Virus record (IMG/VR): IMGVR_UViG_3300030102_006696
Span: 1 to 39,143 of that record
Length of the DNA stretch: 39,143 nucleotides
Reading direction: 5' to 3' (one strand)
Origin: a virus
Positions 1-20,392 of this stretch are shown here, piece by piece. Both the position numbers and the translations under genes were made by a program. Within the stretch, counting starts at the first letter, position 1, and the number at the start of each line of letters is the position of its first letter. The notes beneath the pieces were generated by a model that saw only the letters and a list, made by a program, of their open reading frames with translations, was not told the origin of the DNA and made no database searches.

Positions 1-3000
1 TTAGTGTCTACGAGAGAAGGCAGCAGAGAGACAACGCTTTTGTTCAGCATCCAATTCCAAGAAATGATTTGCAGTATGGTTGGGTCGCTGCTTCGGCAAC
101 GGAATCGAGAGAAAAGTTCGTGGGTCATCGTCATAACTTTTCAGAACCACGAGGAGTGGACTCTGTATACCAGAGGGACATAAGTCTGATAAGTTCTTCT
201 GAGGAGTCTGCAAATACGACCGGCACCGCTTGGTCCGACTTCGTTGGATTAAACTTTTTACAAAAGGTGGGTCAGGGTATAGAGACCCCAGGTACAGACA
301 ACACTATTGATGCTACCAATAACATCTTGACACTAAAGAATGATGGAAGTTCTTGGACTTTGCGTACCCTTGTTCCAAAACTATCCCCATACGGGTGGAA
401 TAGTTGGAAGCAGATAAGGTCTGGCGATCACCCAATCGCAAGACACCACAAAAAAAATAACAATATCACTTTGCACTTGCGAGATGGAGAACCTAACACC
501 TCTCCGTTGATGAACTACTCTAGACCTCACGGGACTGAAAATAACACTACCGAGCAACATGACCGTGTTATTGGGGTATACCAGGAACCTCCAGTAACGT
601 CACAATATAAACCTATAGAACTTATGTTTGGTGTGATCTCTGACGATCAGTTTGGTGATCTAAGAGAGGATGTGGCAGGACATCAAGATACGGGCGCAAC
701 TTTTACATCGAAGAGAAATCGTGTTTTTGGTCAAGGTCGTGCAGAAATAAAGATGAAGATGACCTATGCAAATAACATTTGCAAGTTTGCAAATAGAGAC
801 CTAATGACGGTTTTGAAACTTGAAGATACAGATCGAACTAAATTTGACGCCATAATAGATAATATGAAAAAACCTGGGGGTGTTATGGTCCCAAGTGGTT
901 TTAAGTATTCGGAAACGATCTACCCTGCCGAGGTCAACTTATACCAGAAAGAAACCAGGTTAAGAACTTCTTTTGTTAGCAGAGAGTGGAGGGAGACAAG
1001 ACTGGAGAGAAATGAATTCTTAACAGCGACGCTAGGAGATAAGTACATGGAGGATGCAGCGAATCGCATGATTAGTCCGATCTCTTCTAGTACAAATTCT
1101 CAATATTCCGCTCTATACACCCACGGCAGCACTCAGTATGAATACTTCATAACACAAAGCATGTGGCCACTTGACGCAAGGTCGGACTTTGCTACTAGAC
1201 CTGCCTTCTTGTTATCATCCTCCATTAATTGGGATAATCACAACGCATATGGCGACCGAAGAGCTCTTGCCCGGATCAATGACGACGCGGGCGAGTTACA
1301 AAATTCGTATTCAAATTTTCATAACGGTGGAAATGCCTACCAAGCTGGCGATGACTCGCCCTTTGGTGCACTTTATAATCGAAGAATCCAACAAGAGGTA
1401 GCAGGTTTTACTTATCTTGCTGGCGAGGCAAAGTGGGAGGCAGGAGATCAATCGGGCAAATATCCGTTTGAAAAGAATTATGAAACTTGGGCAAGCGAAC
1501 TTAAGGTCGCACCAGACTTCGCTCTTGTACCAGAGTTTAAGATATCAGATCATATTGATAGAATTTTGTCATCTGGAAGTGTCACGACCCCACTGGAAGA
1601 CTTTTTGTCTCTCACGGGATCAACGGACAGTGCTTCGGGGACATTCTTTAAGACGTATTCTAACACTGATTTTATGAAATATTTTGAAACAGTCAATGAC
1701 AAGTTTTCGAGTTTAGACAAGGAACCCAGTTCTTTGTTTCTTGAGTGCAAGGCAATGTTAAAAATGTTGCCATACGAAGGTTTGTATCCAGCAACTAGAA
1801 CTTTGGCGTTGTGCGAGTTATTCAGAAAAGAATACACTGATATTCGCTTTGATGCCTCACAGATTGACCCAAGCGCCCTTGCAAGCGAAAGTAACAGAGA
1901 GTTGGTTGAGACACTCGTGTTTATCCGTGCTAGGCATAATCTTAAGAATGCTTCAAAGATGCTATACGCCCCCGGCGTTCTATACAATAGTATTAAGAGT
2001 GGAATGGCAGTGGATTATCCAATATTTTATAATACGGGCACAGGTTCTATGGAACAAACTGGCATCAACGACCGCGCAGACACCGCTGCTGAACTGCGCC
2101 AACAGTGGTCTCCCCATCGCGGCGCAGAAGAAAACCCTCTTGCTGGTGCTTATGGTCTTGCCTTTACTGGCAGTTACCTAACAACTGCCAATCCTGATAG
2201 AACATTTGGACAACCTAGGATCAAATCGAACATATACAGAAGAATTTTATTTGAAGAGATTATAAATCCAGACGTTCTGGATGGTGTCGCAATGTATGAC
2301 AATGAACCGCATCCGTCTGCTTCTGCAGGATCAGAGTATTTTGCCGCGACTCCACAGGTGAGTACATTCTTTGACATTCATCCTGTTTATGGGTCTATAT
2401 TCAGCGGTTCCGAATTCGGCCGCTCAAGATACTGGAGCGATGTAAACCCTAGTCTTAAGATGGGTTCTGTAGAGAATTATTCTTTAGCGATGAATAACTT
2501 TGTCGCAGAGGTTCCTAATTTCTTCTTAAAGAACGAATCTGTAACAACCCTCGTGTCAGAACCTGGTCCGTTTAATTTTAACAATTCTGAAATTGGTCAG
2601 ACCTTCGAGATGAAAGTTGAGATTAAGAACAAGGGCACCACAATGTATGAGAACCCATCTGCCTTTGGTCCTCCAGTAGATAATTCTCCAACGACTGATC
2701 AGAATGGCAATATTCGACACGGGTTTGCCCCGTATACACCAGGATTTTTAAAGAGAGATGGTACATCTTTTGTGACATTGCAGTTTACGCCAAGCAAGAG
2801 GACCTACACTTTGAATGAACTTTTTGGCGAAGTTACAACAAGTTTTTCAGACACTAGACTTGAGCATAGTTTGGCAGATCCTCTTTATACGGTCGACCCA
2901 GGTGTGGCACACTTTTTTAGTACAAATAAGACCAATATGATGAATATAGATGCATCTTTTAATTTGTTTTCCTCTGTAGAAGAACCAGAAGCAACCCAAG

Positions 3001-4058
3001 ATGATAAGGGTGCTATTATAAGTTTGTCAAACCCCGCCACCAGTCGTTCTCGATGGGTCATACAAAGCAAATGGGAGACTCCTATTCTGGACTTTGGAAG
3101 AGTCGACGCGACTTATTACGATGCTACTGGATCGCAGGAGATGTTGCACTCTGTCGCTTTTGGAGACGTCGAGACCCCTGCTCATTGGTCATCGAATATT
3201 TCAAGTAAATCATGCCTCCTAACCGGTTCAAGAGGTATGTGGCATCAATACGGTGAATTGCCAAATGCGAACGGAGGATATGAGGTAAAGATAACCGATG
3301 TACAAAAGGCACCCTCTTTGGCATCTAAGGTTGGGTTCCCCGTTGGACAATCCAGAAAGATTGGTGAAGTTGCAGAGACAAAGGAGATTAGTGAGGCAAT
3401 TGTTGCAATTCCATACTTTGTGGAGTTTGGGCAATTGACGTTCTGCGACCTTGATCCAGAAGATGTCAGGGAGGTCATGGGCGAACTAGACGCATTACGC
3501 GGTCAGATTGCCCTAACACCCGGAGTCCACCCAGCAGTCAGGCATCAGTTGGAGATGATGCAGAAGTACATTTTGCCTCCACAATTGGACTTCTTAAAGT
3601 ATAGAGATAAGTCCCCAATGGCGATGTATATTTTTGAATTTAAGCACGAACTAGACCAGCAAGATCTCGTAGATTTGTGGCAAAACTTGCCACCAAAAAT
3701 TGCAAGACATGCAGAAGGATTCAAGACTGCTGTTGTGGGTCACAATCTTGTAAAGAATGGACAGGTTCTTGATCCATTGAGCGGGGAAGTTGCAGAGAAG
3801 ATGCAATGGATGGTGTTCAAGGTCAAGAAGCGCGCAGAAGTTTCCTATTTTAAGAAACTAAACGACTCAGTATTTCAGACTAAGGGCGCAAAGGTAGATG
3901 TGTTTAGAGAGGGTAGAAATCGATCTCTTGTCGCTTCATCTTTAGAAGATATTTCCTTGCGTACAGACGGGTATTCTTACAACTGGCCTTACGATTACTT
4001 TTCCCTAGTAGAACTAATTAAATTGGACGCAAGTGTTGTCTTTAGAGATAAGACCTAA
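1..4058 (+). CDS. Giant virion structural protein, C-terminal part (5' truncated by window edge)
   Basis: The frame is open from base 3 to the TAA at 4056-4058, so about 1351 residues are visible and the true start lies upstream of the window. A TTG at 69 is in frame but has no convincing ribosome binding site, and the codons before it read as the same protein. The N-terminal visible part holds a motif resembling PYGWNSWKQIR...HPIARHHKKNN, and the C-terminal part holds FEFKHELDQQDLVDLWQNLPP followed by WMVFKVKKRAEVSY. From memory these recur in very large structural proteins of marine phages; I could not search. No transmembrane segment, signal peptide or enzyme motif is evident. It is followed after 19 bases by another structural gene with its own AGGAAG site. 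It is probably a tail or fibre component; the exact role is unknown. Confidence 0.75.
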   Translation, partial: SVYERRQQRDNAFVQHPIPRNDLQYGWVAASATESREKFVGHRHNFSEPRGVDSVYQRDISLISSSEESANTTGTAWSDFVGLNFLQKVGQGIETPGTDNTIDATNNILTLKNDGSSWTLRTLVPKLSPYGWNSWKQIRSGDHPIARHHKKNNNITLHLRDGEPNTSPLMNYSRPHGTENNTTEQHDRVIGVYQEPPVTSQYKPIELMFGVISDDQFGDLREDVAGHQDTGATFTSKRNRVFGQGRAEIKMKMTYANNICKFANRDLMTVLKLEDTDRTKFDAIIDNMKKPGGVMVPSGFKYSETIYPAEVNLYQKETRLRTSFVSREWRETRLERNEFLTATLGDKYMEDAANRMISPISSSTNSQYSALYTHGSTQYEYFITQSMWPLDARSDFATRPAFLLSSSINWDNHNAYGDRRALARINDDAGELQNSYSNFHNGGNAYQAGDDSPFGALYNRRIQQEVAGFTYLAGEAKWEAGDQSGKYPFEKNYETWASELKVAPDFALVPEFKISDHIDRILSSGSVTTPLEDFLSLTGSTDSASGTFFKTYSNTDFMKYFETVNDKFSSLDKEPSSLFLECKAMLKMLPYEGLYPATRTLALCELFRKEYTDIRFDASQIDPSALASESNRELVETLVFIRARHNLKNASKMLYAPGVLYNSIKSGMAVDYPIFYNTGTGSMEQTGINDRADTAAELRQQWSPHRGAEENPLAGAYGLAFTGSYLTTANPDRTFGQPRIKSNIYRRILFEEIINPDVLDGVAMYDNEPHPSASAGSEYFAATPQVSTFFDIHPVYGSIFSGSEFGRSRYWSDVNPSLKMGSVENYSLAMNNFVAEVPNFFLKNESVTTLVSEPGPFNFNNSEIGQTFEMKVEIKNKGTTMYENPSAFGPPVDNSPTTDQNGNIRHGFAPYTPGFLKRDGTSFVTLQFTPSKRTYTLNELFGEVTTSFSDTRLEHSLADPLYTVDPGVAHFFSTNKTNMMNIDASFNLFSSVEEPEATQDDKGAIISLSNPATSRSRWVIQSKWETPILDFGRVDATYYDATGSQEMLHSVAFGDVETPAHWSSNISSKSCLLTGSRGMWHQYGELPNANGGYEVKITDVQKAPSLASKVGFPVGQSRKIGEVAETKEISEAIVAIPYFVEFGQLTFCDLDPEDVREVMGELDALRGQIALTPGVHPAVRHQLEMMQKYILPPQLDFLKYRDKSPMAMYIFEFKHELDQQDLVDLWQNLPPKIARHAEGFKTAVVGHNLVKNGQVLDPLSGEVAEKMQWMVFKVKKRAEVSYFKKLNDSVFQTKGAKVDVFREGRNRSLVASSLEDISLRTDGYSYNWPYDYFSLVELIKLDASVVFRDKT

Positions 4059-4077: not shown

Positions 4078-5013
4078 ATGTCGTTTTTCAACAAAAGAGA
4101 AGAAGTAATAAACATTCAACTAACTCGCTTCGGCAGAGAATCGATTATGAAAGGAAAGTTTGAACCTGTTTTTTACAGATTTTTTGATGATGGCGTTATA
4201 TACGATTCCGCATGGGCAGGGTTTGAAGAGGTTCAGAATGCCGCTGAAGACAGAATAAAAGAAGCACCTGTTTCGAAACCACAGTCGGCATTCGTCGGCG
4301 TAGAGACTGCGCTAGAAAGAGATTATAACACAAGAAACCAAGGCGACCATAGTATAGACAGATTCTATGAACCTCTAAACGAAGACGCTGACGAAGAAGA
4401 AAGGGTGTACTCTTTGAGGAATCCTCTTTTTTCTGGCAAGGTCGGGTCTGATAAGACACCCGGATTCAGAGTGGTTGCGATGACAGAACCCTTTAGTGGC
4501 AGTTTAACATATAGTACTGGGTCTGGAGAGAACATCCCTGAAGCAAAAATTAAATTCGAATCAGTGACAATAGTCTCTGAAAACCAAGGCGAAGATCCAG
4601 ATTCTGTGTTTGAACCCATAATCGACGACGTCCAGACGTTTGAGGGAGGCGTGTCTTATGCAACAAATAACGAACCTCTTGTGTTTTCTGTGCAGGAGAC
4701 GAATGTCGCTAGTCATTTTGATGGTTTTGAAATAGAGATTTTTGAAGATATTAGTGGTTCGCTGGTACAGATGTATTTTGACCATGAGGATGAAAATAGG
4801 TTGATATCCGAGTATTTCGAGATACTAATAGATGACGAGGCGCAGGAGTTGGGTCTTGACATGGGCATGGGGCAAGACTTTCTTCCGCCTATGTTTTCAA
4901 GGAGGCGATTTATCGACCCTATTACGCGTTTGACTAATCGATCAAGGTCATCTGCTGGCGGCACTTACACTTCATTGCCTTCCGATGAAGATGTTGAGGA
5001 CTGCGAATCATGA
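4078..5013 (+). CDS. Virion structural protein with LT-x2-GR N-terminal motif
   Basis: This 311-aa protein starts at an ATG preceded by AGGAAG. Its N-terminus (LTRFGRESIMKGKFEPVFYR then FFDDGVIYDS) has the same plan as the protein at 11646 (VLTDAGRQRMSKGNFSIVKF then DDEINY): LT, two residues, GR, a basic KG-x-F step and an acidic DD. That suggests a shared N-terminal domain. The rest is acidic (many Asp and Glu) with no enzyme motif, and the C-terminus becomes Arg/Ser-rich and then acidic. The stop overlaps the next start as ATGA at 5010-5013, so the two genes are probably translationally coupled. A structural role is inferred from position among large virion genes; which virion part it forms is not clear. 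Confidence 0.65.
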   Translation: MSFFNKREEVINIQLTRFGRESIMKGKFEPVFYRFFDDGVIYDSAWAGFEEVQNAAEDRIKEAPVSKPQSAFVGVETALERDYNTRNQGDHSIDRFYEPLNEDADEEERVYSLRNPLFSGKVGSDKTPGFRVVAMTEPFSGSLTYSTGSGENIPEAKIKFESVTIVSENQGEDPDSVFEPIIDDVQTFEGGVSYATNNEPLVFSVQETNVASHFDGFEIEIFEDISGSLVQMYFDHEDENRLISEYFEILIDDEAQELGLDMGMGQDFLPPMFSRRRFIDPITRLTNRSRSSAGGTYTSLPSDEDVEDCES

Positions 5014-8000
5014 TAAGATCAAGTTCGGATCCAAACAGTTATGCCTCTATTTTGCCAGAGGTTTTAGTCAAGAAGGTTCACGTCAACAGAGAAAGACGCG
5101 GTGATCGCTTATCGTTGGATGTAGATCTTTTGGTCCGTGTAATGCCTTCATCCCCCTTGGAAAAAGAAAAAATGGACCTTATCAAGAGAAGTTCGACTGC
5201 CTATGTAGTCTTGTACGACCCAGAAAGTGTACAGGCAGGTGTGCATATATCAGGATTTCAGGATCCGACATCTGCGGGTCGAAATAGGTCTGATCTTAAG
5301 ACTAGGTTAAACGGGTTGTTCCCACAACCGCCGCTCCCATTTCTTGGCGGTGTTCATCGAAGGTTTGACATAGGGTCTTTCTTAAAAGAAGAGGCGTGTC
5401 AGTCAGAGTTGTACTATTCTACAGGTGCACAGATCTATGATTACACTAAAAAAGTAAAGTTTAAGAACATACCTGCGGTCGCAGGGTTGAAAATAATGGT
5501 ATTCGTCCACTTGGATACCGCAGCGCTTGTAGACGCAATGCAGGACTTTTCTGGAGTAAATTTAGATTTTGCCTCTGGATATTTCAACGGATGCTATTCT
5601 ATAGGTACTCAGGCGAAGACTACAACAATTTTGGAAGATTCTAAAGTACCAGAGTTTTACACAGTGTATGTAGACTCAAATTCTATAGCGTGGACGGGAC
5701 CAGTTCATGCCATGCGCAGCGAGACCGGAGAGTTGCTGTATTGGATGAAGGGTTCCACTCACGAGGAATCAGAACAATATAGCGCAGCGATGTTATCCGA
5801 AAGAGTTGTTAGGAACTCTAAGGTCATTGACACTAGAAAAGTTGAAAGTCAAGAACCAAGTTATTATGGCGGAAACTATCCTCAAGTGCAGGAAAGTCGA
5901 ACCGAAAGATTGGAAAAAAAGATACGTGCTCATTCTGCGCAGGTCCGATCACACGCTGCAAGAGGGGTGAGTGTTACTCCTCCTAGGACGCAAATTATAG
6001 ACTACCTTTCAGAAGTGGATCGTGGAAACTCTATAGGTGAGATATATTTGTCTGTTCTAAACAGCAGGGATTTAGATATCCTGTTTAATGTTAACTGGTT
6101 GGAGATTCTAAAAAGAAATTCACCATTTTTTAAGTTGATGCCTGTCTTGAGTCCAAGGGAGGTCGATCAGGTGTTATCTTTTTCTCAAGTTGTCTCGGTC
6201 TGTGTAAAGCGGAGACGAGTACATCCAGAAAACATTGGTATAAGCAAGTTTCTATCGAGGGCACCGAAACCAATAGAGAATGAACCTCCGGTTAAGGTCT
6301 CAAGTAATTATTCTATGCCATCATATGGTGTCACAGCACTTAGAGAGATAGATGTCGTCTATGAGGACATACCTGAAGCAGAGCATCGAGGTATAGTGAC
6401 TTTTCGCGCACGAGATGAGCAAGTAAAGAACTTGAAAGGGGTGTACCAATATTATGTAGAATATGAGTTCACCGACGGATTCTTATTGTTTTTTGAAAAT
6501 TTTATGCAAATAGTTGAAGAGATGGAAAGTGAGTTAAGTGCCTACATTACATCGGCAAGTATTCCAGTGAGTTTTATCACTGTGGATGGTATTAGTCAGA
6601 TAAATCCTAATTCTAGAGGAAATTATAATCCCATAACTGGTGAATTTACTGCACAATTTAGAGCAAACATTAGAAACAATACAACAGCGGCCGCCATTGC
6701 TAGGGTCTTTGCGTCAATGACTAGGTTTGTAGACGGGTCAATTAACCGCTCACCAATAGACGCCAATGAAAGTTTTGAAGAAATGAACGTAACAGCAAGA
6801 AGGATGCTAGATCCAGCACAGGGTGCAACGTTGGAGACTTTGACCAGGTTTACAAAGTCTTTTCTTGCGTACAAGGCGAAGGTCCACGCTTTGATCTCCG
6901 GGTCGTCCAAGAAGCAATCAAGGAGAGGGCAAAACTCAGCAACCACCCCAAAGGGCAACATGCCTGGGTACATAAAGTACGTGGATTTCTTCGATCAAAC
7001 TTTTAATACAGACAGTCTTTATCAACCACTGATCAACTACATGCCACCTGCCTCAGTGGACATTAGTGCCGCCGCCGATCTCTTTGCCGCAATGCAGGAA
7101 GAAGCGGACACTTTTGGGTTTGATGCTTTAACTGATTTCGCCAACGGTGCTTATCTGACAATGCATAGTTTTGAGTATACACCACCTATACCGATTGAGC
7201 ATACAGTTGAAGAGCGGGCGTTTCTAGACAATAGTTTTGCACCGCCACCTGAACCCACTCTCTATCGTGCAGATGGTCTTGTAAAGGTGCCACCAGTTAG
7301 GTATCAGTTCAAGGGTGGTGACAGTATTCCAAACTTTGGAGGAACTTCGGAAAACATGCTAAGAAAGGCACTATCTTTTTCAGGCAAGACTTCGAATGAG
7401 GCAACGGGTCAGCGTAAACCAGAATTGTCTTATGCGCCCCCACCTTCCGTTAGGGACAAAACTCCAGATCCAGTAATCGAGTCATCTTATGGTGGGGACG
7501 TTTTCTCATTTGCCAGTGATTTGAATACGATAAACAATGTCTTGGGTGCCACTCTGGAGATAGACTTCGTATCTCCTTCGATTGCTTCTATAGTGAACAA
7601 TATTCCAAATAATTTGTGGATGACGGAAGACCAAAGACTAAACCAGATCGACACGAAGTTTGACGTGTTGAAGAAGTTGACACAAAATCATATTGACCAA
7701 TTGACCAATCAAAAAAAGAAGTCAAAATTAGCAGAGCATGTCGTGGATGATCTGACAAATATATCGTTGAATAGTTTTACACCTAATTCGTCAGGTCTCT
7801 TGGGCACGATCAACATGTTGTCATCGATGACTTTTGATCAAAATTTTGAATCAGAAGCAATCGAGGTACCAGAACTCCAAGGTTTGTTGACGGATATCCC
7901 GCCAGAAATAGTTGAAGATGTTCCACCTCACTTCAGACCTAGTGTTGTAACAAGTGATTCTGCTCAAGGGGTGTTGCCCGATGGGACTTTGTCCAAATAT

Positions 8001-8306
8001 GTGCATGGATTTATGGTAGAGGTGAAGGAGTTGGGTTCTTTTTCGAAAGGAAAGAAAAGTGTACCTAATCAATCGAAGATAAATACCGACCTTGGCAAAA
8101 AAAATGATTCGACAAGGAGTAATTTCAACAAAATAAACCTGAATAGTTTTCCAAAAAAGGGGTCTTCTAATAATTCTCAATCACAGGGCAGAAAATATAA
8201 AATCTGTAAACTAATTCCTTATGAGAACAGAGAGGCAGGAATCAAAAAGAGCAAGGACTCTAGGGAAGTGACCATCATCGGTGAGCACTTTTTGGTGGAG
8301 GTGTAA
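5010..8306 (+). CDS. Large virion structural protein (1098 aa)
   Basis: The ATG overlaps the stop of the preceding gene (ATGA), with a weak GAGG upstream, and the stop lies directly next to the next ATG at 8307, so this sits in a tight structural operon. The protein is 1098 aa with no catalytic motif, signal peptide or transmembrane segment that I can see. The middle is beta-rich; from about residue 990 the sequence becomes basic and low in complexity (Lys, Ser, Asn), and the last ~40 residues return to an ordered-looking stretch ending EHFLVEV. Its size and neighbours suggest a baseplate or tail-associated protein. I do not recognise a named family, so the role is inferred from context only. 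Confidence 0.65.
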   Translation: MIRSSSDPNSYASILPEVLVKKVHVNRERRGDRLSLDVDLLVRVMPSSPLEKEKMDLIKRSSTAYVVLYDPESVQAGVHISGFQDPTSAGRNRSDLKTRLNGLFPQPPLPFLGGVHRRFDIGSFLKEEACQSELYYSTGAQIYDYTKKVKFKNIPAVAGLKIMVFVHLDTAALVDAMQDFSGVNLDFASGYFNGCYSIGTQAKTTTILEDSKVPEFYTVYVDSNSIAWTGPVHAMRSETGELLYWMKGSTHEESEQYSAAMLSERVVRNSKVIDTRKVESQEPSYYGGNYPQVQESRTERLEKKIRAHSAQVRSHAARGVSVTPPRTQIIDYLSEVDRGNSIGEIYLSVLNSRDLDILFNVNWLEILKRNSPFFKLMPVLSPREVDQVLSFSQVVSVCVKRRRVHPENIGISKFLSRAPKPIENEPPVKVSSNYSMPSYGVTALREIDVVYEDIPEAEHRGIVTFRARDEQVKNLKGVYQYYVEYEFTDGFLLFFENFMQIVEEMESELSAYITSASIPVSFITVDGISQINPNSRGNYNPITGEFTAQFRANIRNNTTAAAIARVFASMTRFVDGSINRSPIDANESFEEMNVTARRMLDPAQGATLETLTRFTKSFLAYKAKVHALISGSSKKQSRRGQNSATTPKGNMPGYIKYVDFFDQTFNTDSLYQPLINYMPPASVDISAAADLFAAMQEEADTFGFDALTDFANGAYLTMHSFEYTPPIPIEHTVEERAFLDNSFAPPPEPTLYRADGLVKVPPVRYQFKGGDSIPNFGGTSENMLRKALSFSGKTSNEATGQRKPELSYAPPPSVRDKTPDPVIESSYGGDVFSFASDLNTINNVLGATLEIDFVSPSIASIVNNIPNNLWMTEDQRLNQIDTKFDVLKKLTQNHIDQLTNQKKKSKLAEHVVDDLTNISLNSFTPNSSGLLGTINMLSSMTFDQNFESEAIEVPELQGLLTDIPPEIVEDVPPHFRPSVVTSDSAQGVLPDGTLSKYVHGFMVEVKELGSFSKGKKSVPNQSKINTDLGKKNDSTRSNFNKINLNSFPKKGSSNNSQSQGRKYKICKLIPYENREAGIKKSKDSREVTIIGEHFLVEV

Positions 8307-11300
8307 ATGGGTATTGGAATATACGGAAACGCACAGCAGGCTGCCCGCGCTGCTGTTGGTAGTGTTAGGACTGGAATTACTGCCACTGCCACTCAAGTGC
8401 AGACGCCCGCTGAACAAATGGCAAATGCCGTAAACAACGTTTCGAACAGTGTTCTGTTTGGGTGCCCACAGGGAGAACTTCTCCCAACTGAACCACCGCC
8501 CGATGTCGCAGAACCAGAAGAGCAGGGAAATCAAGTGATAGACGTGGTTCGAAATTTTGGACCCTCGCAGTTCTTTTTGGCACCGTCAAGTGTTATTGAT
8601 AGTCCTGCGACTCAAATTTCAAGGATTAAAACTGTTATCAATCAATCATTGTTTTTTGCAAAAGGTCGCGACCTGTCGGCACAAGAAATATCTGACACGG
8701 CAGGCAGACTGGTTCGTCCAACTTTGGTTAGGTACGCTGAAGAGGCGGACAACTTTCTTTCAGTGGGCAGTCGGACTAGGATGGACGGGTTTAGGTATAT
8801 CCTGGGATCTTTTTGGACTCTTGCGCATACTGATCAGGGTATGATATCTGCACCGAGAATGTATGAACCTGGCACCGATAATACGGTTGGAACCACATTT
8901 CCAGATAATCACATGTTTAGGAACATATACGCCAGAGAGTTAAATAATGATAATACAAAGTTCATAATTACAATGAGACCAAATTACGACTTCTTTAGAC
9001 CAGGACTGCAGGGACTGAGTTATGATCGTGGTCACGCTGCTTCTTTAAGAGAGTATGTCTTCGGCGGCGATTCCGTGCAACAAACAGACTATCCAGAGAG
9101 ATATGAGAGACCAATGATTGAAGCGCAGTCATTCTTTGATTACGTGCATGACGTAAAAATGCCTCTTTTCAGTGAGGAGATGGAAAATGCAAATACCGGA
9201 GGCAGGTTGCTGGACGCAAGTATTAAGTTAGAGTCCAATTACCGTCTTCCAGAAGGTGCATTTATAGGTGGCACTTTTGTAGCATCTCCGTACAGACTTC
9301 ACAATTCTGATGAAGAAGACGTTGTTTTGCAAGATGGCATATTTTATAGTGAAAACAGAAGACCGAACGATTCAGTGTTGGCGTTTACGCCATCGCACAT
9401 TAAGAAGTTTCCAGAAATATACAAGGAATACAAAGACTTATACCCATCAACTGTATGTCTAGACTTCGCAACAAGTCAGGGTGGCGAAATGCCCAGGATT
9501 TTAAAGACTCAGTCTAGTGTCGTTAAGGATTTGGCAATGCGCTTTGTCAATAGTGCTGCCACCGTGGGAACTTACGCAGAGGTAATATCAGAGACTATTG
9601 AGGAGGCGCGTAGTGATTCCGATGAAGATACGCCTGGAATCGACATGCAGAACGACAAGTTTGTTCAGGAACAAGACCTTGAGCACTATCATCCAATAGA
9701 TATCTTGGATTTAAGAACTCCTGCCGTCTTAAATATGGAGAACTTCCCTCTCCACAAAACAGTGGAACAACCTGCTGATCCTGATAGTCCATCTAATGCA
9801 CTGTCTAGGGTTTTCGAAAGATTAGAGAGGGCAGTAAGTATAGCAAAAGTAAGAGAGATTGAATCGACAAAGTACAGAAAATTTACAGATATACTAAAGG
9901 GCAGAAAAAGTTATTCAGAACCTATAGCGTATTTGGTCGAGAAGCATGACTCTGATCGAAACGGGCAGTCAAAGGGGGTTTTGCAAAGATTCCTTTTTAT
10001 GGACAATGATGATGTTGACAGGATACAGTTTTTGGACCCACAGTTGATTAATAAGAAGACATATTCTTACAGGGTGTTTGTCTTAAATCTGGTGGTCGGC
10101 AGTGAGTACATGTATGAAAAAGTAACCTTGCCAAATACTGTAGATGCTTTTCAATCCGTAACTGTCCCATCCGCTTTTTATTATGCAAATTTTGGGGGAA
10201 ACAGAGAGTCTGCTTATACCTTTTCACCGGATCAGGGAGAGTACACAAACGTCGCCACTCAAGAGGTTTTCGAAGGAGATGTTGAAGGGTTTAGGCAGTT
10301 TACTATGATCTTGAAAAGTGACACCTATAAGGGTATAGACCAGGTTTCGGCACAAATAAGATCAAATATAGAACCGGAACCAGCATATCCTGGTCGTGTA
10401 ATTTGGATATCCACGCCATCGTCCTTGAACAACCCAACAGAAATTGACGTCAGAAGAGAGATTCAGGCAAGAAGGGAGCGATTAGTTCTGGTTGGTATGA
10501 GACACGCCGGCACAGGACGCGGCGCGGTCGGTAACGATTTGGGATCTGTAGGTGCCCGCCTGGAGCATATCCAAAACGAACCAAGTTCCGAGCACAGAAA
10601 TGGGTTCAATGATCTGATAACGATTGCAGGCACTTGTGTCCCAAGGGCACTAGTTGTGAAAGTTCCGTACTTTAGAAAAGACATATTTGTTGACGATGAT
10701 CCACCATTGTCTCCCGACATAGACATCGTTCCTTATAAGGGGATCACGAATCGTATTAAGATCATAATGACTTCTCGCACTGGTGAAGAGATGGCGACCC
10801 CTGTGGTATTTGCTGCCATGGACTTACAAAGGTTTGACGATGCCCGCAGAGCACAAGACGTCAAACAGGGGCATCCAATACGGTTCAGTTCGGACGACCC
10901 TCCCTCTTTGTATGAAGTGTATAGGACAACCACCCCTCCGGAGAGTTATGATGACTTTTCGCAAAATCTTCACACAAGGGTGACCACGATTGGCAGCGCA
11001 GCAAGTCTTATAGACACTGTGGAACCAAACGTCAAGTACTATTACACGTTTAGATCTATAGATGCGTCAAATCACGTTTCTAATCCTGGAAAGGTTTTTT
11101 GTGCACAACTTGTGTCTACTGACGACGGCATGTATCTTGATTGGAGTGTCTATAAGTTCCCAAGGATAGTGACGGAAGATTCTTTAAGTTTTAATCAATA
11201 TGTGTCAATCCGTGCCGCACAGCAACAACTCTTGCCGGATCCAGAATCTCAACGTGGCGCAGACGGAGACACACAATTGGAACAACCTGAAGACCTATCC

Positions 11301-11564
11301 CCAGGTCCAAGAGACCGTCGTGTTTGGAATCGAAAGTTTGTGGTTAGGATAAAATCAAAAAACTCTGGAAATGTTCTTGATGTTAAGTTTACTTGTCAAA
11401 ATCTTAAAATCGACGAGAGAGACCCAGTGCAACCACAGTCTTCTACGGATTCAAATACACCACCGACTAAGCAGAAAACAACGAAGACTTCATCCAAGGC
11501 CGGGGTCGTCTGGGAAGGTGAGGGCAAGGTGAAAAAGAAGATGGTTCCGAGTACCGGTGAATAA
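8307..11564 (+). CDS. Large virion structural protein with fibronectin-III-like segment (1085 aa)
   Basis: The start is an ATG with GGAGGTG just upstream, immediately after the previous stop. The N-terminal ~60 residues are rich in Ala, Thr, Val and Gln. Around residues 862-936 there is a stretch resembling a fibronectin type III domain: LYEVYRTT near its start, and YYYTFRSIDASNHVSNPG near its end (the YxF/YxxRxxD pattern of Fn3 strands). The last ~60 residues are Ser/Thr/Lys-rich and probably disordered. There is no enzyme motif. A gap of 81 bases follows, the first real gap in the structural block, so this may end a transcription unit. The tail or baseplate role is inferred. Confidence 0.65.
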   Translation: MGIGIYGNAQQAARAAVGSVRTGITATATQVQTPAEQMANAVNNVSNSVLFGCPQGELLPTEPPPDVAEPEEQGNQVIDVVRNFGPSQFFLAPSSVIDSPATQISRIKTVINQSLFFAKGRDLSAQEISDTAGRLVRPTLVRYAEEADNFLSVGSRTRMDGFRYILGSFWTLAHTDQGMISAPRMYEPGTDNTVGTTFPDNHMFRNIYARELNNDNTKFIITMRPNYDFFRPGLQGLSYDRGHAASLREYVFGGDSVQQTDYPERYERPMIEAQSFFDYVHDVKMPLFSEEMENANTGGRLLDASIKLESNYRLPEGAFIGGTFVASPYRLHNSDEEDVVLQDGIFYSENRRPNDSVLAFTPSHIKKFPEIYKEYKDLYPSTVCLDFATSQGGEMPRILKTQSSVVKDLAMRFVNSAATVGTYAEVISETIEEARSDSDEDTPGIDMQNDKFVQEQDLEHYHPIDILDLRTPAVLNMENFPLHKTVEQPADPDSPSNALSRVFERLERAVSIAKVREIESTKYRKFTDILKGRKSYSEPIAYLVEKHDSDRNGQSKGVLQRFLFMDNDDVDRIQFLDPQLINKKTYSYRVFVLNLVVGSEYMYEKVTLPNTVDAFQSVTVPSAFYYANFGGNRESAYTFSPDQGEYTNVATQEVFEGDVEGFRQFTMILKSDTYKGIDQVSAQIRSNIEPEPAYPGRVIWISTPSSLNNPTEIDVRREIQARRERLVLVGMRHAGTGRGAVGNDLGSVGARLEHIQNEPSSEHRNGFNDLITIAGTCVPRALVVKVPYFRKDIFVDDDPPLSPDIDIVPYKGITNRIKIIMTSRTGEEMATPVVFAAMDLQRFDDARRAQDVKQGHPIRFSSDDPPSLYEVYRTTTPPESYDDFSQNLHTRVTTIGSAASLIDTVEPNVKYYYTFRSIDASNHVSNPGKVFCAQLVSTDDGMYLDWSVYKFPRIVTEDSLSFNQYVSIRAAQQQLLPDPESQRGADGDTQLEQPEDLSPGPRDRRVWNRKFVVRIKSKNSGNVLDVKFTCQNLKIDERDPVQPQSSTDSNTPPTKQKTTKTSSKAGVVWEGEGKVKKKMVPSTGE

Positions 11565-14982: not shown

Positions 14983-15600
14983 ATGAGTATCAAAAAAAAG
15001 TATCGTCTTGTTTCCGCAAAACTTGATATATTAAAAACAGATCTTAAGATAACCAAGGAATTGTTTCAAGACGCCAAAAGAGAATTCTCAGAAGAATTTA
15101 TGAAACATGTTGTAGACGACGACAATGACCCAGTTGTCCCGCCAAAAAAGGAAGAACCAGAGTCGCCAGGACATGTGTCGAAAGATCGTCGCAAGGCAAA
15201 GGAAGACATCTCTGACGAAGAGATAGAGAAGCACGTAAAAGAAGATCGCGATGACGAATTAAAAAAGATTTTTAAGCAAATTGCAAGAAAAACTCATCCA
15301 GATTTGTTGTATAATAAATCACAGTTCGAAAGGCAGAGAAAAGAAGAACTTTTTAGAGACGCCAAGAGGGCAATGGAGGAGGATGACTATTTTGAATTAT
15401 CTAGAGTGGCAAATGATCTGGATATCTCAACACCAGAACCAACTGAGAAACATATTCGTATGCTAGAAGCAACTGCTGACCGTATCTCTAAGGAGATAAA
15501 AACGATAAAGAACTCTGTTGCTTGGCATTGGTATAATATCAACGACATCAACGACCGTATAAGGTATATGAATAGGTACATAGATGCGCTCAAGCAATAA
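14983..15600 (+). CDS. J-domain-like (DnaJ-type) protein
   Basis: This 205-aa protein starts at an ATG with GAGGTG upstream. Residues 91-150 look like the core of a J domain: helix II ELKKIFKQIARKT, the diagnostic HPD tripeptide at 105-107, and a helix-III-like KEELFRDAKRAMEEDDYFEL. J domains stimulate the ATPase of Hsp70 chaperones through HPD. The usual helix I (YxxLG) is not obvious. N-terminal residues 1-90 are charged and probably helical then disordered; residues 155-205 form another helical region. No zinc-finger or substrate domain of DnaJ is present. A role in bringing host DnaK to virion or replication proteins is possible but inferred. The 3' end overlaps the next gene by 17 bases. 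Confidence 0.65.
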   Translation: MSIKKKYRLVSAKLDILKTDLKITKELFQDAKREFSEEFMKHVVDDDNDPVVPPKKEEPESPGHVSKDRRKAKEDISDEEIEKHVKEDRDDELKKIFKQIARKTHPDLLYNKSQFERQRKEELFRDAKRAMEEDDYFELSRVANDLDISTPEPTEKHIRMLEATADRISKEIKTIKNSVAWHWYNINDINDRIRYMNRYIDALKQ

Positions 15601-16138
15601 CGTTATAGGTTTGGACATTTCAACTAGTATAACGGGAATATCAGTCTTTAATGATGAAGGTAAGTGTGTCTATAACGAGTTTGTAGACACTAGAAACAAA
15701 AACAAATATCCCGATCTCTATAAGAAGGCAAGGCACTTAAGGACTAGGTTGATAGCAATAGAGGGAGAATATTCGATTTCTTCTATCTATATCGAGCAAT
15801 CTCTGCATTCTTTTAGGAGCGGATTTTCTTCCGCGCAGGTTTTGTCAAAACTGTCAAGATTTAATGGGATGATGTCCTGGATATGCTATCAACTTTTCGG
15901 CAAAATGCCCGAAATGATCTCTGCCTCCACCGCTCGCAAGACTGCTGGAATAACTGTTAGGCGAGGCGAAAATGCAAAGCAAAAATGTTTTGATTTTGTA
16001 GTTGACGAATACCCTGACTTTGTGGTAGAGTACACAAGGAATGGCAATCTAAAACCTGGCATTCTTGATAAGTCTGACAGTTACATCATAGCAAAAGCAG
16101 GTTGGGAAATTTGGAAGAAAGAAAATTTAAACTGCTAA
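15584..16138 (+). CDS. RuvC-like Holliday junction resolvase (RNase H fold)
   Basis: This 184-aa protein is about the size of RuvC. It starts with the first RNase H-fold strand, IGLDIST, with the catalytic Asp at residue 11. A second acidic residue lies in YIEQS (Glu71), and the C-terminal pair LDKSDSYIIAKAG (Asp162, Asp165) matches the last RuvC motif, where two acidic residues bind metal. RuvC-type enzymes cut four-way DNA junctions. In a phage this would debranch recombined DNA before packaging, the job T4 gives to endonuclease VII. The start overlaps the J-domain gene by 17 bases, and its 3' end overlaps the primase gene, so the three are probably cotranslated. Family assignment is by motifs only. 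Confidence 0.75.
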   Translation: MRSSNNVIGLDISTSITGISVFNDEGKCVYNEFVDTRNKNKYPDLYKKARHLRTRLIAIEGEYSISSIYIEQSLHSFRSGFSSAQVLSKLSRFNGMMSWICYQLFGKMPEMISASTARKTAGITVRRGENAKQKCFDFVVDEYPDFVVEYTRNGNLKPGILDKSDSYIIAKAGWEIWKKENLNC

Positions 16139-17046
16139 GTGATACCTTGGGGCGCTCATATAGAAATGGGGAAGAGAGGTTGTATCACTGTCCAAAGTGT
16201 AAGCATCACAAAAAGAAGTTATCCGTCAATATCGCTAGAAATGTTTTTAAGTGCTGGGTTTGCGAATATTCTGGCGCTGATATTTTCAAACTAATCAAGA
16301 GGTACGCTTCCCGTTCGGTCGTCGCGGAATGGAGGCAGTTTTCAGATACCATAGAGATCTCTAACTTCGACAAAATATTCGAGGTTTCCCATGAGGAACC
16401 CGAGGAAGTGAGGTTGGATTTGCCAAAGGAGTTTGTCAGTCTTACTGGCGAGGTGACCACTTCTCTGCTTCGTCCTTACAAGTATTTGACGTCCAGAGGT
16501 TTGACCAAAGAGGACATAATTAGGTGGAAGATAGGATGCTGTCTTAGTGGTCCATATGCAAACAGGATTGTCGTACCATCTTTCGACCTCGACGGTCGTT
16601 TGAATTATTTTATTGCAAGAACATATGGAGACTCGTATGTCAGGTACAAAAACCCACCAACCAGCAAGGATATGGTGTTTAACGAGATTCAGATTGACTG
16701 GGGTAAACCGACGATTTTAGTCGAGGGCGTCTTTGACGCTATGAACGCAGAAAATTCCATACCAATATTGGGGTCTTCGTTAAACCCAAAATCAAAATTG
16801 TTTCAAAAAATAGTAGGCAACAGTCGTGATGTCTACGTTGCTCTTGATTCAGATGCCTCTGAAAAGTGCTACTCGATAGCAAGAAACTTGATGCTGTATG
16901 ACGTCAATGTTCACATAGTGGATACTTCTGGGTATGAAGATGTCGGGACAATGAGTAAAGAAGAATTTATGGAACTTAAAAATGCTGCTTCTTTTGTTTC
17001 TTTAGACGACTATTTACTTTACAAAACTAACGCTATATGGAGTTAA
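16102..17046 (+). CDS. DNA primase, DnaG-type (zinc finger plus Toprim)
   Basis: This 314-aa protein makes RNA primers for lagging-strand synthesis. It has an N-terminal zinc-binding region with C30-P-K-C33 and C51-W-V-C54, then a primase N-domain element YLTSRGLTKEDIIRWKIG (129-145), then a Toprim domain with EGVFDA (catalytic Glu208) and the acidic pair DSD (249-251). The order and size fit a short DnaG or T4 gp61-type primase; no helicase domain is fused. The frame overlaps the RuvC gene and no ATG occurs before the zinc finger. The start is TTG, either 16102 or 16111 (three codons later), and is uncertain. A partner replicative helicase is not in the window. Confidence 0.85.
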   Translation: MGNLEERKFKLLSDTLGRSYRNGEERLYHCPKCKHHKKKLSVNIARNVFKCWVCEYSGADIFKLIKRYASRSVVAEWRQFSDTIEISNFDKIFEVSHEEPEEVRLDLPKEFVSLTGEVTTSLLRPYKYLTSRGLTKEDIIRWKIGCCLSGPYANRIVVPSFDLDGRLNYFIARTYGDSYVRYKNPPTSKDMVFNEIQIDWGKPTILVEGVFDAMNAENSIPILGSSLNPKSKLFQKIVGNSRDVYVALDSDASEKCYSIARNLMLYDVNVHIVDTSGYEDVGTMSKEEFMELKNAASFVSLDDYLLYKTNAIWS

Positions 17047-17049
17047 GGT

Positions 17050-17250
17050 ATGAAAATTACAAAAAATAAACTACAAACAATTATAAAAGAAGAGGTCGCT
17101 AAGTTTTCTGGCAAATCAGAGGGCACTACAACAGAGGAGTTGCTAGAGGCAGTAAGGTCGATCTCCAAATCCACATCCAATACTCTCAGGGAAAATAAGG
17201 ATGTTTTGGAAATTATGATTGCCCACCTAAAAAAACACTTGACAGATTAA
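17050..17250 (+). CDS. Small protein of unknown function (66 aa)
   Basis: An ATG with GGAG and AAGG upstream starts a 66-aa, mostly helical, charged protein. Its N-terminus, ITKNKLQTIIKEEVAKF, is of the short 'LxxIIKEE' type that I have seen at the start of many small marine-phage proteins, often head-associated. No enzyme motif or membrane segment is seen. It sits 3 bases after the primase gene, and its last codons contain the -35 element of the promoter for the next gene. The function is unknown. Confidence 0.6.
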   Translation: MKITKNKLQTIIKEEVAKFSGKSEGTTTEELLEAVRSISKSTSNTLRENKDVLEIMIAHLKKHLTD

Positions 17251-17267
17251 AAGCAATATACTATAAT
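17239..17267 (+). promoter_or_regulatory. Perfect sigma70 promoter (TTGACA-17-TATAAT)
   Basis: TTGACA at 17239-17244 and TATAAT at 17262-17267 are separated by exactly 17 bases: both hexamers are full consensus at the ideal spacing. The predicted transcript would start near 17274, about 23 bases before the ATG of the nuclease-ATPase gene at 17297. The -35 lies inside the last codons of the 66-aa gene. Host RNA polymerase should read it without phage factors, so it would permit early or constitutive expression of the recombination gene and possibly the small membrane genes behind it. Confidence 0.8.
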
Positions 17268-17296
17268 AAAAGTGATCATATATAGATGGAGGATCA

Positions 17297-20200
17297 ATGC
17301 GAATCGGTCATATTGCTGACACACATATACGGAACCTAAAATATCACTATGAATACAATGAAGTATTTGAACAATTATACAAATCCCTAAGAAAGGAAAA
17401 GGTGGACTGCATTGTTCACTGCGGTGACATTGCACATACAAAGACACAAATCTCACCAGAGTTTGTCGACATGGCAAGAGATTTTTTTGCCAATCTTGCT
17501 GCAATTGCGCCAACATATATTATCCTAGGTAACCATGACGGTAACCTGAAGAACGCCAGTCGTCAAGACGCAATCACCCCAATCATAAAGGCAATGGACA
17601 ACGACAACATTCATCTGCTCAAGGACTCAGGCGAGACAAAGATTAATGATAAGTTTTGCCTAAACGTCTTGTCTGTTTTTGATGAGGACAACTGGGTTAA
17701 ACCCTCTGATAAAGAGGTGGTGAATATCGCACTATACCATGGAGCAATTGACAGATCCAAGACGGATTTAAACTGGACACTTGGCGGGGATCATGATATT
17801 GGAATCTTTGAACCCTTTGATTTTGCGTTCCTTGGAGACATTCACAAGACTCAGAAGTTGGACAAAGAGGGTCGAATCTGGTATGCGGGTTCCACCGTGC
17901 AACAAAACTTTGGAGAATCTTTGGACAAAGGGTATTTGCTGTGGGACATCAAGAGTAAGGACGAGTTTAAAAATAAACTCATTACTTTTAAAAACCCTAA
18001 ACCATTTGTAACAGTGACTTTGAATAAGGACGGATCCCTCCCCGACATTGAAGTGCCACCTGGCGCGAGACTTCGCCTTGTGGCAGATTCTAACATTTCT
18101 TTGGATGTGATGAGGAAGAGTGTTGACGTTGCAAAATTTAAGTTTAAACCTGAAAACATTACTTACTTAAATCGCGCCTCGAATTCATTGGTTGATGTGG
18201 ACGCCCCTGCACTAGAACAAGAGGACTTGAGGTCTTTAAAGGTACAAAATAAGTTAATCGGAAATTATCTGAGTGAATATGAGGTCAGCGACGAGATCAT
18301 GGACAAGGTCTTGTCACTGAATTCTAGAGTGAATAGACTGATCGAAGAGTCAGAAGAAGTCTATAGGAACGTCAATTGGAGCATTCAGTCTTTAGAGTGG
18401 GATGGTTTGTTTAATTATGGACAAGGAAACAAGATTGACTTTACCAAGTTGAATGGCATCGTCGGCATTTTCGGTAAGAATTTTTCAGGTAAGTCTTCGA
18501 TTGTTGACAGTTTGCTGTATGCAATTTATAACTCTACTTCAAAGTCAGTAAGAAAGAATCTTAACATAATTAATCAAAACTTGGATGTAGGTCGTGCAAC
18601 AGCGACAATTCGAGTTGGAGATAAAGAGTTTGAGATTAACCGCGTTTCCGAAAAATATGTTAAAAAACTCAAAGGCATATCGACCGAAGAGGCAAAGACT
18701 GATGTTGATTTTGTTTCGACAGACGCTATCGGAAATCAAGAGAGTTTGAATGGAACATCCCGACAGGATACTGACAAGAATATTAGAAAGTATTTTGGAA
18801 CACTAGACGATTTCCTGATGACATCAATGGCATCTCAGTTGGATTCTTTAACTTTTATTAACGAAGGTTCAACAAACCGCAAAAGTATCTTAGCAAAATT
18901 TCTTGATCTTGAAATATTTGACAGAAAATTCAAGATGGCAAAAGAGGAATCCGCGGATATCCGAGGTGCCCTTAGAAGGTTGGAGGGCACTGACTTTGAA
19001 GATCAGATCCAACAAGCGACTCAAGTTTTAAACGAAAAGTATTTAAGATTGGCAAAAAATCAAAAAAGATGCTCAAAATTAGAGTCAGAGATTTCGAATC
19101 TTCAAGAAGAGGTTTCTTTGATATCGGCGAAGGTTGAGTCCGCACCAACTGAATTTATAGACCCAGTAAAACTGCGACGGGAAATAGAAAATACATCGAA
19201 CACGCTAAACAAGATTCAAGTCGCCACCAACGCCTTGAATGTGGAGATAGAGCAGTCTAGGGATAAGCATGAGAAGATTGTAAAATTTATTTCTGAATTC
19301 GACATTGGAGAGTTGGAGGAAAAAAAGAAAAGAATTTTTGAGAATAAAGACCGCCTAGAATCATTGCTGTTGGAACTCAAGACAACCTCTGAGCAGAAAG
19401 ATTTTCTGATCTCCAAGAATGATCTTTTGTGTCCGAAGTGCAAACCACTCATTGAGGAGTGCATACATCAGGCACAGACCGACATGAGTAATTTAAGTGT
19501 CGAGATAAACTCAATGGGAGAATCTTTTAACGACATAGAGCAAAAAAGGGTTATTGATCACATTCAAAAGTTTGACCTATTAAAAGAAAAGCGAGTTCAA
19601 CTTTCGGAGTCCATAACCACCTTGCAACTGTCTATTGATAAGAGTAAGAGTGACGCCTTCAGGGAAGAGACTATTCTAGAAAAATTGACTGGCAAATTGA
19701 AACAGTATGACGACAATCGCGAGGCAATAGAAAATCTCGAACAACTTCTCTTGGAAAAGAGCAGAATCAGTAAATCCATAACTTCTCTGCGGGCAGAGTG
19801 TGATTCCTGCATTTCTTCTACTAATGACTTGTTTAAGGAGGTTGGGTCCGCTGAACAGCGCATTAAGAACTTAGAAGAGAAGCGAAAAGAGTTGGAAGAT
19901 CTCAGATCAGAATTTGCTGCATACGAGTTGTTCATGAGGTGTTGTCACCCAAATGGCATATCGTACAACATCATCAAGAATAGACTTCCAGTGATTAATG
20001 AAGAAATCGCAAAGATTTTAACAGGTGTTGTGGATTTTGAAGTTTTTATTTTGAATGAGGACAAAAAATTGGATATTCTGATCAAGCATCCAAAGTTTGA
20101 ACCTCGTCCTCTTGAAATGGGTTCGGGTGCGGAAAAAACTATTGCATCAATGGCAATTAGATTGGCATTTTTAACAGTGTCGAATTTACCAAAACCGGAC

Positions 20201-20392
20201 CTATTTATTATGGACGAACCTGGAACCGCTCTTGATGAAGACAATATGGAAGGGTTTGTCAGAATAATGGATATGGTGAAAAACTATTTTAAGACGGTTG
20301 TGCTGATTTCTCACTTAGATGCCCTTAAGGACGCTGTGGACATGCAAGTAATGATTGATCGAAAAGATGGTTTTGCTCATATAGAAATCTAG
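17297..20392 (+). CDS. Mre11/SbcD-type nuclease fused to Rad50/SbcC-type ATPase
   Basis: One uninterrupted 1031-aa protein carries both halves of a recombination nuclease complex. The N-terminal ~340 residues have Mre11 metallophosphoesterase motifs: DTH (8-10), GDIAH (43-47), GNHD (78-81), H148 and GDIH (180-183). The C-terminal part has Rad50 motifs: Walker A GKNFSGKSS (393-401), long coiled coils around a zinc hook CPKC (712-715), ABC signature GSGAEK (about 942-947), Walker B LFIMDEP (969-975) and an H-loop SHLD near 1009. In T4 these are separate proteins, gp47 and gp46. The complex resects ends and supports recombination-dependent replication. The start is an ATG with GGAGG upstream, driven by a consensus sigma70 promoter. 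Both halves look catalytically intact. Confidence 0.9.
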   Translation: MRIGHIADTHIRNLKYHYEYNEVFEQLYKSLRKEKVDCIVHCGDIAHTKTQISPEFVDMARDFFANLAAIAPTYIILGNHDGNLKNASRQDAITPIIKAMDNDNIHLLKDSGETKINDKFCLNVLSVFDEDNWVKPSDKEVVNIALYHGAIDRSKTDLNWTLGGDHDIGIFEPFDFAFLGDIHKTQKLDKEGRIWYAGSTVQQNFGESLDKGYLLWDIKSKDEFKNKLITFKNPKPFVTVTLNKDGSLPDIEVPPGARLRLVADSNISLDVMRKSVDVAKFKFKPENITYLNRASNSLVDVDAPALEQEDLRSLKVQNKLIGNYLSEYEVSDEIMDKVLSLNSRVNRLIEESEEVYRNVNWSIQSLEWDGLFNYGQGNKIDFTKLNGIVGIFGKNFSGKSSIVDSLLYAIYNSTSKSVRKNLNIINQNLDVGRATATIRVGDKEFEINRVSEKYVKKLKGISTEEAKTDVDFVSTDAIGNQESLNGTSRQDTDKNIRKYFGTLDDFLMTSMASQLDSLTFINEGSTNRKSILAKFLDLEIFDRKFKMAKEESADIRGALRRLEGTDFEDQIQQATQVLNEKYLRLAKNQKRCSKLESEISNLQEEVSLISAKVESAPTEFIDPVKLRREIENTSNTLNKIQVATNALNVEIEQSRDKHEKIVKFISEFDIGELEEKKKRIFENKDRLESLLLELKTTSEQKDFLISKNDLLCPKCKPLIEECIHQAQTDMSNLSVEINSMGESFNDIEQKRVIDHIQKFDLLKEKRVQLSESITTLQLSIDKSKSDAFREETILEKLTGKLKQYDDNREAIENLEQLLLEKSRISKSITSLRAECDSCISSTNDLFKEVGSAEQRIKNLEEKRKELEDLRSEFAAYELFMRCCHPNGISYNIIKNRLPVINEEIAKILTGVVDFEVFILNEDKKLDILIKHPKFEPRPLEMGSGAEKTIASMAIRLAFLTVSNLPKPDLFIMDEPGTALDEDNMEGFVRIMDMVKNYFKTVVLISHLDALKDAVDMQVMIDRKDGFAHIEI

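Follow-up and report, generated by a model that had tools for sequence, protein, structure and literature searches.

A fused Mre11-Rad50 gene in a viral DNA stretch

We examined a 39,143-nucleotide stretch of viral DNA (IMG/VR record IMGVR_UViG_3300030102_006696, positions 1 to 39,143), hereafter the window, which carries a gene joining the two parts of the Mre11-Rad50 (SbcD-SbcC) nuclease. The gene occupies 17297..20392 on the + strand as a single open reading frame (ORF), running from ATG to stop through 1031 codons plus the stop with zero internal stops. An earlier note on this DNA had claimed that one uninterrupted 1031-codon frame holds both the nuclease and the ATPase half, and this is borne out by the ORF, by Pfam and PHROGs matches and by an AlphaFold2 model. 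Pfam places Metallophos at residues 1-169 (E 5e-13) and AAA_23 at 370-606 (2.7e-11), with SMC_N at 363-1016 marginally under its cut-off (4.5e-10). PHROGs assigns residues 332-1026 to phrog_77, SbcC (8.5e-53), and a sequence search of the PDB returned Rad50 (5.5e-11) and Mre11 (5.8e-6).

The Mre11-like phosphoesterase and its capping region span approximately residues 1-304 (17297..18208, +; Metallophos and Foldseek, with the capping boundary estimated from the model). The ligand positions are D8, H10, D44, N79, H80, H148, D181 and H183, and phosphoesterase motifs I-V can all be recognized with one change, an Asp (Asp181) in place of His at the eighth ligand position. The Rad50 ATPase is divided into an N-lobe (18374..18994, +; Pfam, fold comparison and motifs) with the Walker A motif (residues 393-400; 18473-18496) and the Q-loop (Q514), and a C-lobe (19946..20389, +; Pfam, PDB sequences, fold and motifs) with the signature EMGSGAEK (20114-20140), Walker B DLFIMDEPG (20198-20224), the D-loop and the His switch (H1006), so that all six Rad50/SbcC motifs are readable in the sequence.

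The earlier statement that all key residues are intact was nearly right: the other ligands and the ATPase motifs are present, but motif V (residues 180-183; 17834..17845, +; sequence and alignment) reads GDIH and not GHxH, and motif II is GDxxH. The second position of motif V is His206 in Pyrococcus Mre11, whilst Mimivirus R555 has the same motif V Asp and the same GDxxH in motif II (PMC3175470). T4 gp47 has GHFH. The motif V Asp is a family trait and not damage, since D181 is invariant in 35/35 aligned relatives and is shared with R555.

The AlphaFold2 model, built from 35 aligned sequences, has a mean predicted local distance difference test (pLDDT) score of 81 and a predicted template modelling score (pTM) of 0.48. 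Both halves fold, and with confidence, which answers the concern that one of them might lack its fold; as a monomer model may place arms and heads arbitrarily, their placement was not interpreted. The Rad50 half superimposes on E. coli SbcC 7yzo_D (Z 31.2, 350 residues, 4.0 Å) and on Rad50 3av0_B (Z 31.0, 358 residues, 3.7 Å), and almost all fold-comparison rows for residues 360-1031 are of Rad50/SMC type. The nuclease half is supported by sequence and by Foldseek, which returned SbcD/Mre11 chains (7dog_B, template modelling score by target 0.69; 3thn, 0.63).

Between the lobes, the model contains the outward helices of an antiparallel coiled-coil arm (residues 567-708; 18995..19420, +) and its returning helices (716-883; 19442..19945, +). 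The apex is the hook LLCPKCK (709-715; 19421..19441, +; sequence and model), where CPKC at 712-715, a sequence of the CXXC zinc-hook type with Cys712 and Cys715, sits between modelled helices 670-708 and 716-745. Between the nuclease and the ATPase, strands and helices of the capping region (between 210 and 300) are followed by two modelled helices, 314-328 and 332-352, that form a helix-loop-helix (HLH; 18236..18352, +). By its position and by comparison with PMC3175470, this is assigned as the Rad50-binding element of Mre11, the binding itself being a prediction. A junction of residues 353-359 (18353..18373, +; model, selection analysis and alignment) then leads to the first Rad50 strand, which the model begins at residue 360; R357 and W361 are invariant in the alignment of relatives.

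Upstream of the ATG lie a Shine-Dalgarno-like GGAGGA (17288..17293, +; read from the sequence) and a sigma-70-type promoter-like TTGACA-17-TATAAT (17239..17267, +), a consensus match at 12/12 positions. There were seven promoter-like sites in total against 8.7 expected, and this was the sole perfect one. Because this site and GGAGGA directly precede the gene, it is probably expressed from its own start. Its same-strand neighbours are RuvC-like (15584-16138) and primase (16102-17046) genes upstream, and terminase, portal, head protease and major head protein genes downstream. Elsewhere in the window there are three frames of 1085-1351 codons (3-4058, 5010-8306 and 8307-11564), for which no Pfam or PHROGs match was found at the limits used.

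The fusion is conserved among independent relatives

A protein scan of viral contigs gave 28 relatives at 42-73% identity, of which 24 were full-length, and a profile scan of IMG/VR confirmed at least 585 stretches encoding relatives, 80 of which were kept. These 80, with nine of the 13 loci from genome contigs, make up a second set of 89 loci. Selection was measured over 15 pairs of relatives as the ratio of non-synonymous to synonymous differences (pN/pS), giving 0.09 for the nuclease, 0.10 for the HLH plus junction, 0.065 for the junction alone (350-366), 0.06 for the ATPase and 0.26 for the arms. The junction is thus under strong purifying selection, comparable to that on the ATPase.

These data bear on two ways in which the single chain might be illusory. 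That an assembly or sequencing error deleted a stop between two genes has a negligible probability. Such errors do occur: the 'fusion' in Listeria phage LMTA-57 (L034) is shorter by one base than its counterpart in the near-identical LMSP-25, LMTA-34 and LMTA-94, which is annotated as two genes, and the single frame of LMTA-57 is probably a sequencing or frameshift difference and not a real fusion. Isolated database 'fusions' therefore need a length check against near-identical phages. Here, however, the frame is open across the junction in 24/24 full-length relatives and the junction is under purifying selection, so that a lost stop or frameshift is ruled out by independent relatives. In the second set, the matched stretch is uninterrupted in 88/89 loci, of which some are partial; the exception, L106, is disturbed at its 3′ end. 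It is also very unlikely that a separate Rad50 chain is made from an internal start near residues 340-370. A start codon with a Shine-Dalgarno-like tetramer is present in the junction region of 18/109 sequences, but this is about background (14.2% of 1608 other 68-codon stretches, with the true start recovered in 77/107 by the same rule), and the codons sit at differing positions. We rejected an internal Rad50 start because its frequency is at the background rate.

In L106 (3001-6359) the last 60 residues of the gene are present twice in two frames (972-1031 repeated at 6180-6359). L118 and L125 are two separate pieces of the fused gene, widely spaced along a single metagenome-assembled chromosome (CP070664.1, WOR-3 bin), and are likely virus sequence in the bin.

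Relationship to known fusions and two-gene systems

Thirteen Mre11/Rad50 fusions, Mimivirus R555 and twelve others, were described by Yoshida, Claverie and Ogata in 2011 (PMC3175470). The carriers were Mimivirus, a Bacillus phage, bacteria, plasmids and eukaryotes; several origins, and not one clade, were argued for; and phages were argued to account for much of the R555-like sequence found in the viral fractions of aquatic metagenomes. Like R555, the window protein is one frame with the Mre11 half first, the HLH region kept and Rad50 second, and shares GDxxH and the Asp for His206. It differs in having 1031 residues and shorter arms, where R555 has 1351 residues and arms of cellular length. 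The window protein is a further example of a fusion type known since 2011, and with at least 585 relative-encoding stretches in IMG/VR, such fusions are common in viruses of water bacteria; the suggestion that the fusion is unusual is not upheld.

Few annotated phages carry it. Only four of 78 matched records in the phage collection were covered to at least 80% by the window query, and the closest isolated phage was Microcystis phage Mel-JY01. Its WWT39521 (1066 residues, 'AAA domain containing protein') is the same fusion and has a primase two genes upstream, but is 31% identical to the window protein and has the hook CKHC. The available text of a jumbo-phage overview handles SbcC and SbcD as two near-universal proteins (PMC7824862).

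T4 gp47/gp46 resembles the window protein as a phage Mre11-Rad50 nuclease of recombination-dependent replication with short arms and a CXXC hook (CPTC in T4); it differs in being encoded by two genes with two small genes between them, in its motif V and in its sequence, to which the similarity is only distant. E. coli SbcCD and archaeal and eukaryotic Mre11-Rad50 share the fold of both halves; they consist of two chains and have a canonical motif V. The normal complex contains two of each chain, so that the ratio of 1:1 which the earlier note credited to fusion exists without it. Variation of the hook within the family seems to alter the holding of the arms more than the fusion does.

The cysteine hook varies in spacing

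Hook spacings were read by pattern, and by eye in seven, from 109 full-length sequences. CX6C was present in 74, CX2C in 22 (including the window), CX7C in eight, CX1C in three and CX3C in two; i.e. 87/109 family members have a spacing other than CXXC. To follow the spacing across the family, a tree was built with FastTree from the nuclease and ATPase parts only, using the 100 unique head sequences among the 109. Approximately 19 spacing changes are needed on this tree, compared with a mean of 32.6 and a minimum of 27 for shuffled labels, and from this difference the hook spacing is inherited but labile. L037 (CX2C) and L042 (CX6C) are 92-99% identical in their head segments and 21-70% in their arm segments. 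In several pairs the synonymous divergence of the arms exceeds that of the heads, which bears on hook recombination versus fast change; this comparison is limited by poor arm alignments and high saturation. A model of L042 (pLDDT 82) places the CX6C pair in an 18-residue apex loop (709-726), compared with seven residues in the window protein, although this loop was modelled at low confidence (blocks of 50-67).

Amongst eight hooks examined in other phage proteins, those of T4, VspSw_1, Eldridge, Grass, phiXF1 and LMTA-57 are CXXC. No hook was seen in Yoloswag gp183, which is without the Walker A pattern and may be the wrong gene. We found no report of non-CXXC Rad50 hooks in the titles and abstract openings of the open-access papers listed by searches on such hooks. 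In yeast, an SMC hinge can replace the Rad50 hook, according to the available text of PMC6969161, which makes a tolerant hook plausible. The isolated Moorella phage MTATph1 (L324:810-2942) has a separate SbcC gene with a CX7C apex, and a non-CXXC hook could be studied there.

Some relatives are split inside the nuclease

A scan with the CX6C hook returned at least 120 stretches, of which 119 were examined as loci. All 67 loci with >680 residues before the hook were fused (67/67), 44 were cut by the locus end, and eight had a short upstream part. The break falls immediately behind GDIH in seven of these eight (the other, L184, has many frame breaks) and also in L031, which comes from a phage of 484 kb. 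Enlarging the scan to 194 loci gave 127 fused, 27 split and 40 without the N-terminal half in view; the 27 split loci correspond to 22 contigs (one being L184), several loci being the same contig fetched twice. Split and fused forms are adjacent in the tree, e.g. L271 beside L263 on branches of 0.05-0.06. No report of a split Mre11-Rad50 was found in the titles and abstract openings of the open-access papers listed by searches on homing endonucleases together with split genes or Mre11/Rad50. In the records of L255, L281, L284, L292 and L297 (G010-G014) there is an extra phosphoesterase frame of approximately 271-297 codons besides the Mre11-type one (two such frames in G010).

In the split relatives, all eight ligand positions from D8 to H183 remain in the upstream piece, which has also gained an acidic tail. 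A new basic head opens the downstream piece and is followed by the capping region, the HLH and Rad50. Net charge is -3 to -8 over 19 distinct tails (mean -5.9) and +4 to +8 over the 16 heads that were readable by pattern (mean +5.6), compared with a mean of +0.7 for the equivalent loop in 126 fused loci. In the fused proteins, the distance from GDIH to the next conserved strand is 12-20 residues in 240/243 rows and 21 in two rows from one contig, with one row unread; some contigs are counted twice in these rows.

At four split loci, a fused or ordinary Mre11 gene carries a homing endonuclease gene immediately behind its GDIH codons: L279 (2043-2968; Vsr/EDxHD-like), L272 (2141-2995), L330 (2843-3864) and L410 (3925-4906). 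In each, the downstream half starts inside the endonuclease frame, with an overlap of 8-17 bases. The L279 insert encodes 300 residues matching the phrog_3339 homing endonuclease (4e-17), with a weak Vsr resemblance (Pfam 3.7e-4, below cut-off; 1cw0, E 0.41), and that of L272 is a frame of 294 codons without an early ATG. L330 falls within the same family as the window gene (its two parts are 51% and 43% identical; RuvC-like and primase-like frames upstream, by eye) and is split at the same point as L279 by a related gene (39% identity; phrog_3339, 4e-10). The Mre11 gene of L410 is only 33% identical and is split by another endonuclease gene; its downstream part has 98 codons in that frame and the copy may be broken. 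A different nuclease (phrog_1271, 3.5e-15; TnsA-like, 5.8e-6) is inserted in L031. The four genes, unlike that of the window, are in pieces, with an endonuclease gene between the halves and uninterrupted close relatives.

Other loci have what appear from sequence to be the scars of such splits, left when the endonuclease gene was lost. In L266, a short frame keeps the beginning and end of the same endonuclease with the middle missing; L271 and L296 keep the last bases of the gene; L273 and L274 (42 bases) and L292 (12 bases) have residual gaps between the halves; and a clade of 13 tips, including L204, L249 and L256, mostly has a short stop-start overlap, down to four bases. The scars measure only -13 to 42 bases, so there is no room in them for an intron, and among 17 loci none gave an Rfam match to a self-splicing intron at the gathering score. 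The long inserts could still hold an undescribed intron. An intein was set aside: the tail and head, approximately 40 residues, look too short for one.

For the split relatives, though not for the window gene, the closest precedent comes from Aeromonas phage Aeh1, whose nrdA gene is split by the homing endonuclease gene mobE and yet has halves that still form an active enzyme (PMC2988022). In both cases an endonuclease gene lies inside an enzyme gene and the halves must reassemble. The split relatives differ in the gene concerned (Mre11-Rad50) and in the endonuclease, which is Vsr/EDxHD-like where that of Aeh1 is HNH; endonuclease-free scars, too, are common among them.

Probable role of the fused protein

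Taken as a whole, the frame, domains, fold and conservation that were observed make it very probable that the gene product is a DNA-end nuclease of the gp47-gp46 type, with Mre11 and Rad50 in a single chain, and that it belongs to an aquatic tailed phage. We infer a dimer, in which two fused chains would pair via their ATPase heads and via the cysteine hook at the arm tips. Because only approximately seven residues link the HLH to the first ATPase strand, the retained HLH would keep the nuclease half bound in cis to the base of the arm in the same chain. Opening and closing of the heads, driven by ATP, would regulate how DNA ends reach the nuclease. Phage DNA that is broken or terminal would then be resected and tethered, allowing a UvsX/RecA-type recombinase to start recombination-dependent replication, and the protein probably also helps to degrade host DNA, as T4 gp46/gp47 does. 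In each of nine large relatives (123-204 kb, none of them certified as complete), AAA_23 and Metallophos match exactly once, and both matches share one frame. A RecA/UvsX-type recombinase is present in eight of the nine and DNA_pol_A matches in all nine (seven over the cut-off), a gene content that suits T4-type recombination-dependent replication.

Three points weigh against this assignment. Asp181 in motif V could reduce or alter nuclease activity. The window and its relatives are metagenomic. In Thermotoga, the C-terminal end of Mre11 is approximately 28 Å from the N-terminal end of Rad50, a gap estimated to need 9-12 residues (PMC3175470), whereas the junction here is seven residues between modelled elements; cis binding may therefore require the structure to adjust locally, or else the partner chain may be what the HLH binds.

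Asp is able to bind metal, which counts against the rival reading that the Asp in place of His206 leaves the nuclease half weak or dead and that the protein mainly tethers DNA in the manner of an SMC protein. With the other ligands all present, D181 invariant in the 35 aligned sequences and found in R555, and the nuclease half strongly constrained (pN/pS as above), we regard this as distinctly unlikely. Slightly more credible, although still improbable, is that the main job is the breakdown of host DNA or the countering of host defence, rather than phage recombination. The annotation of T4 gp46/gp47 for both recombination and host-DNA degradation would allow this, but the RuvC-like, primase and terminase neighbours and the recombinase in the large relatives suit replication and recombination better. 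A single-chain DNA-end nuclease acting in phage recombination is thus the reading we prefer, and as a single-gene unit it is a simpler system for studying communication between nuclease and ATPase.

Implications for the family

The variation of the hook and the repeated splitting at motif V, both of which lie in the relatives, are more interesting than the fusion itself. A wider reading, which we put forward tentatively and with some doubt, is that, in aquatic phages, the active-site motif of the fused gene serves as a homing target, and that the cassette also brings two strand-forming extensions, an acidic tail for the upstream half and a basic head for the downstream half (of the EVEIEID and KIKIKVK type, respectively), i.e. 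a protein splint that reassembles the cut nuclease without splicing. Loss of the endonuclease would leave two translationally coupled genes, and the zinc hook, freely re-spaced from CX1C to CX7C, would be an exchangeable dimerization module and not a fixed CXXC. That tail and head pair as strands to hold the halves is suggested by their charge and pattern; against it, the L031 head has a charge of only +1, and the likeness of tails and heads could reflect shared descent and co-conversion instead of function.

The family casts doubt on the usual description of the Rad50 hook as a conserved CXXC, and its natural pairs, with near-identical heads and different hooks, allow a direct test of hook function. 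It also presents a nuclease that has been split beside its active-site motif many times by mobile genes, possibly with a built-in means of holding the halves together.

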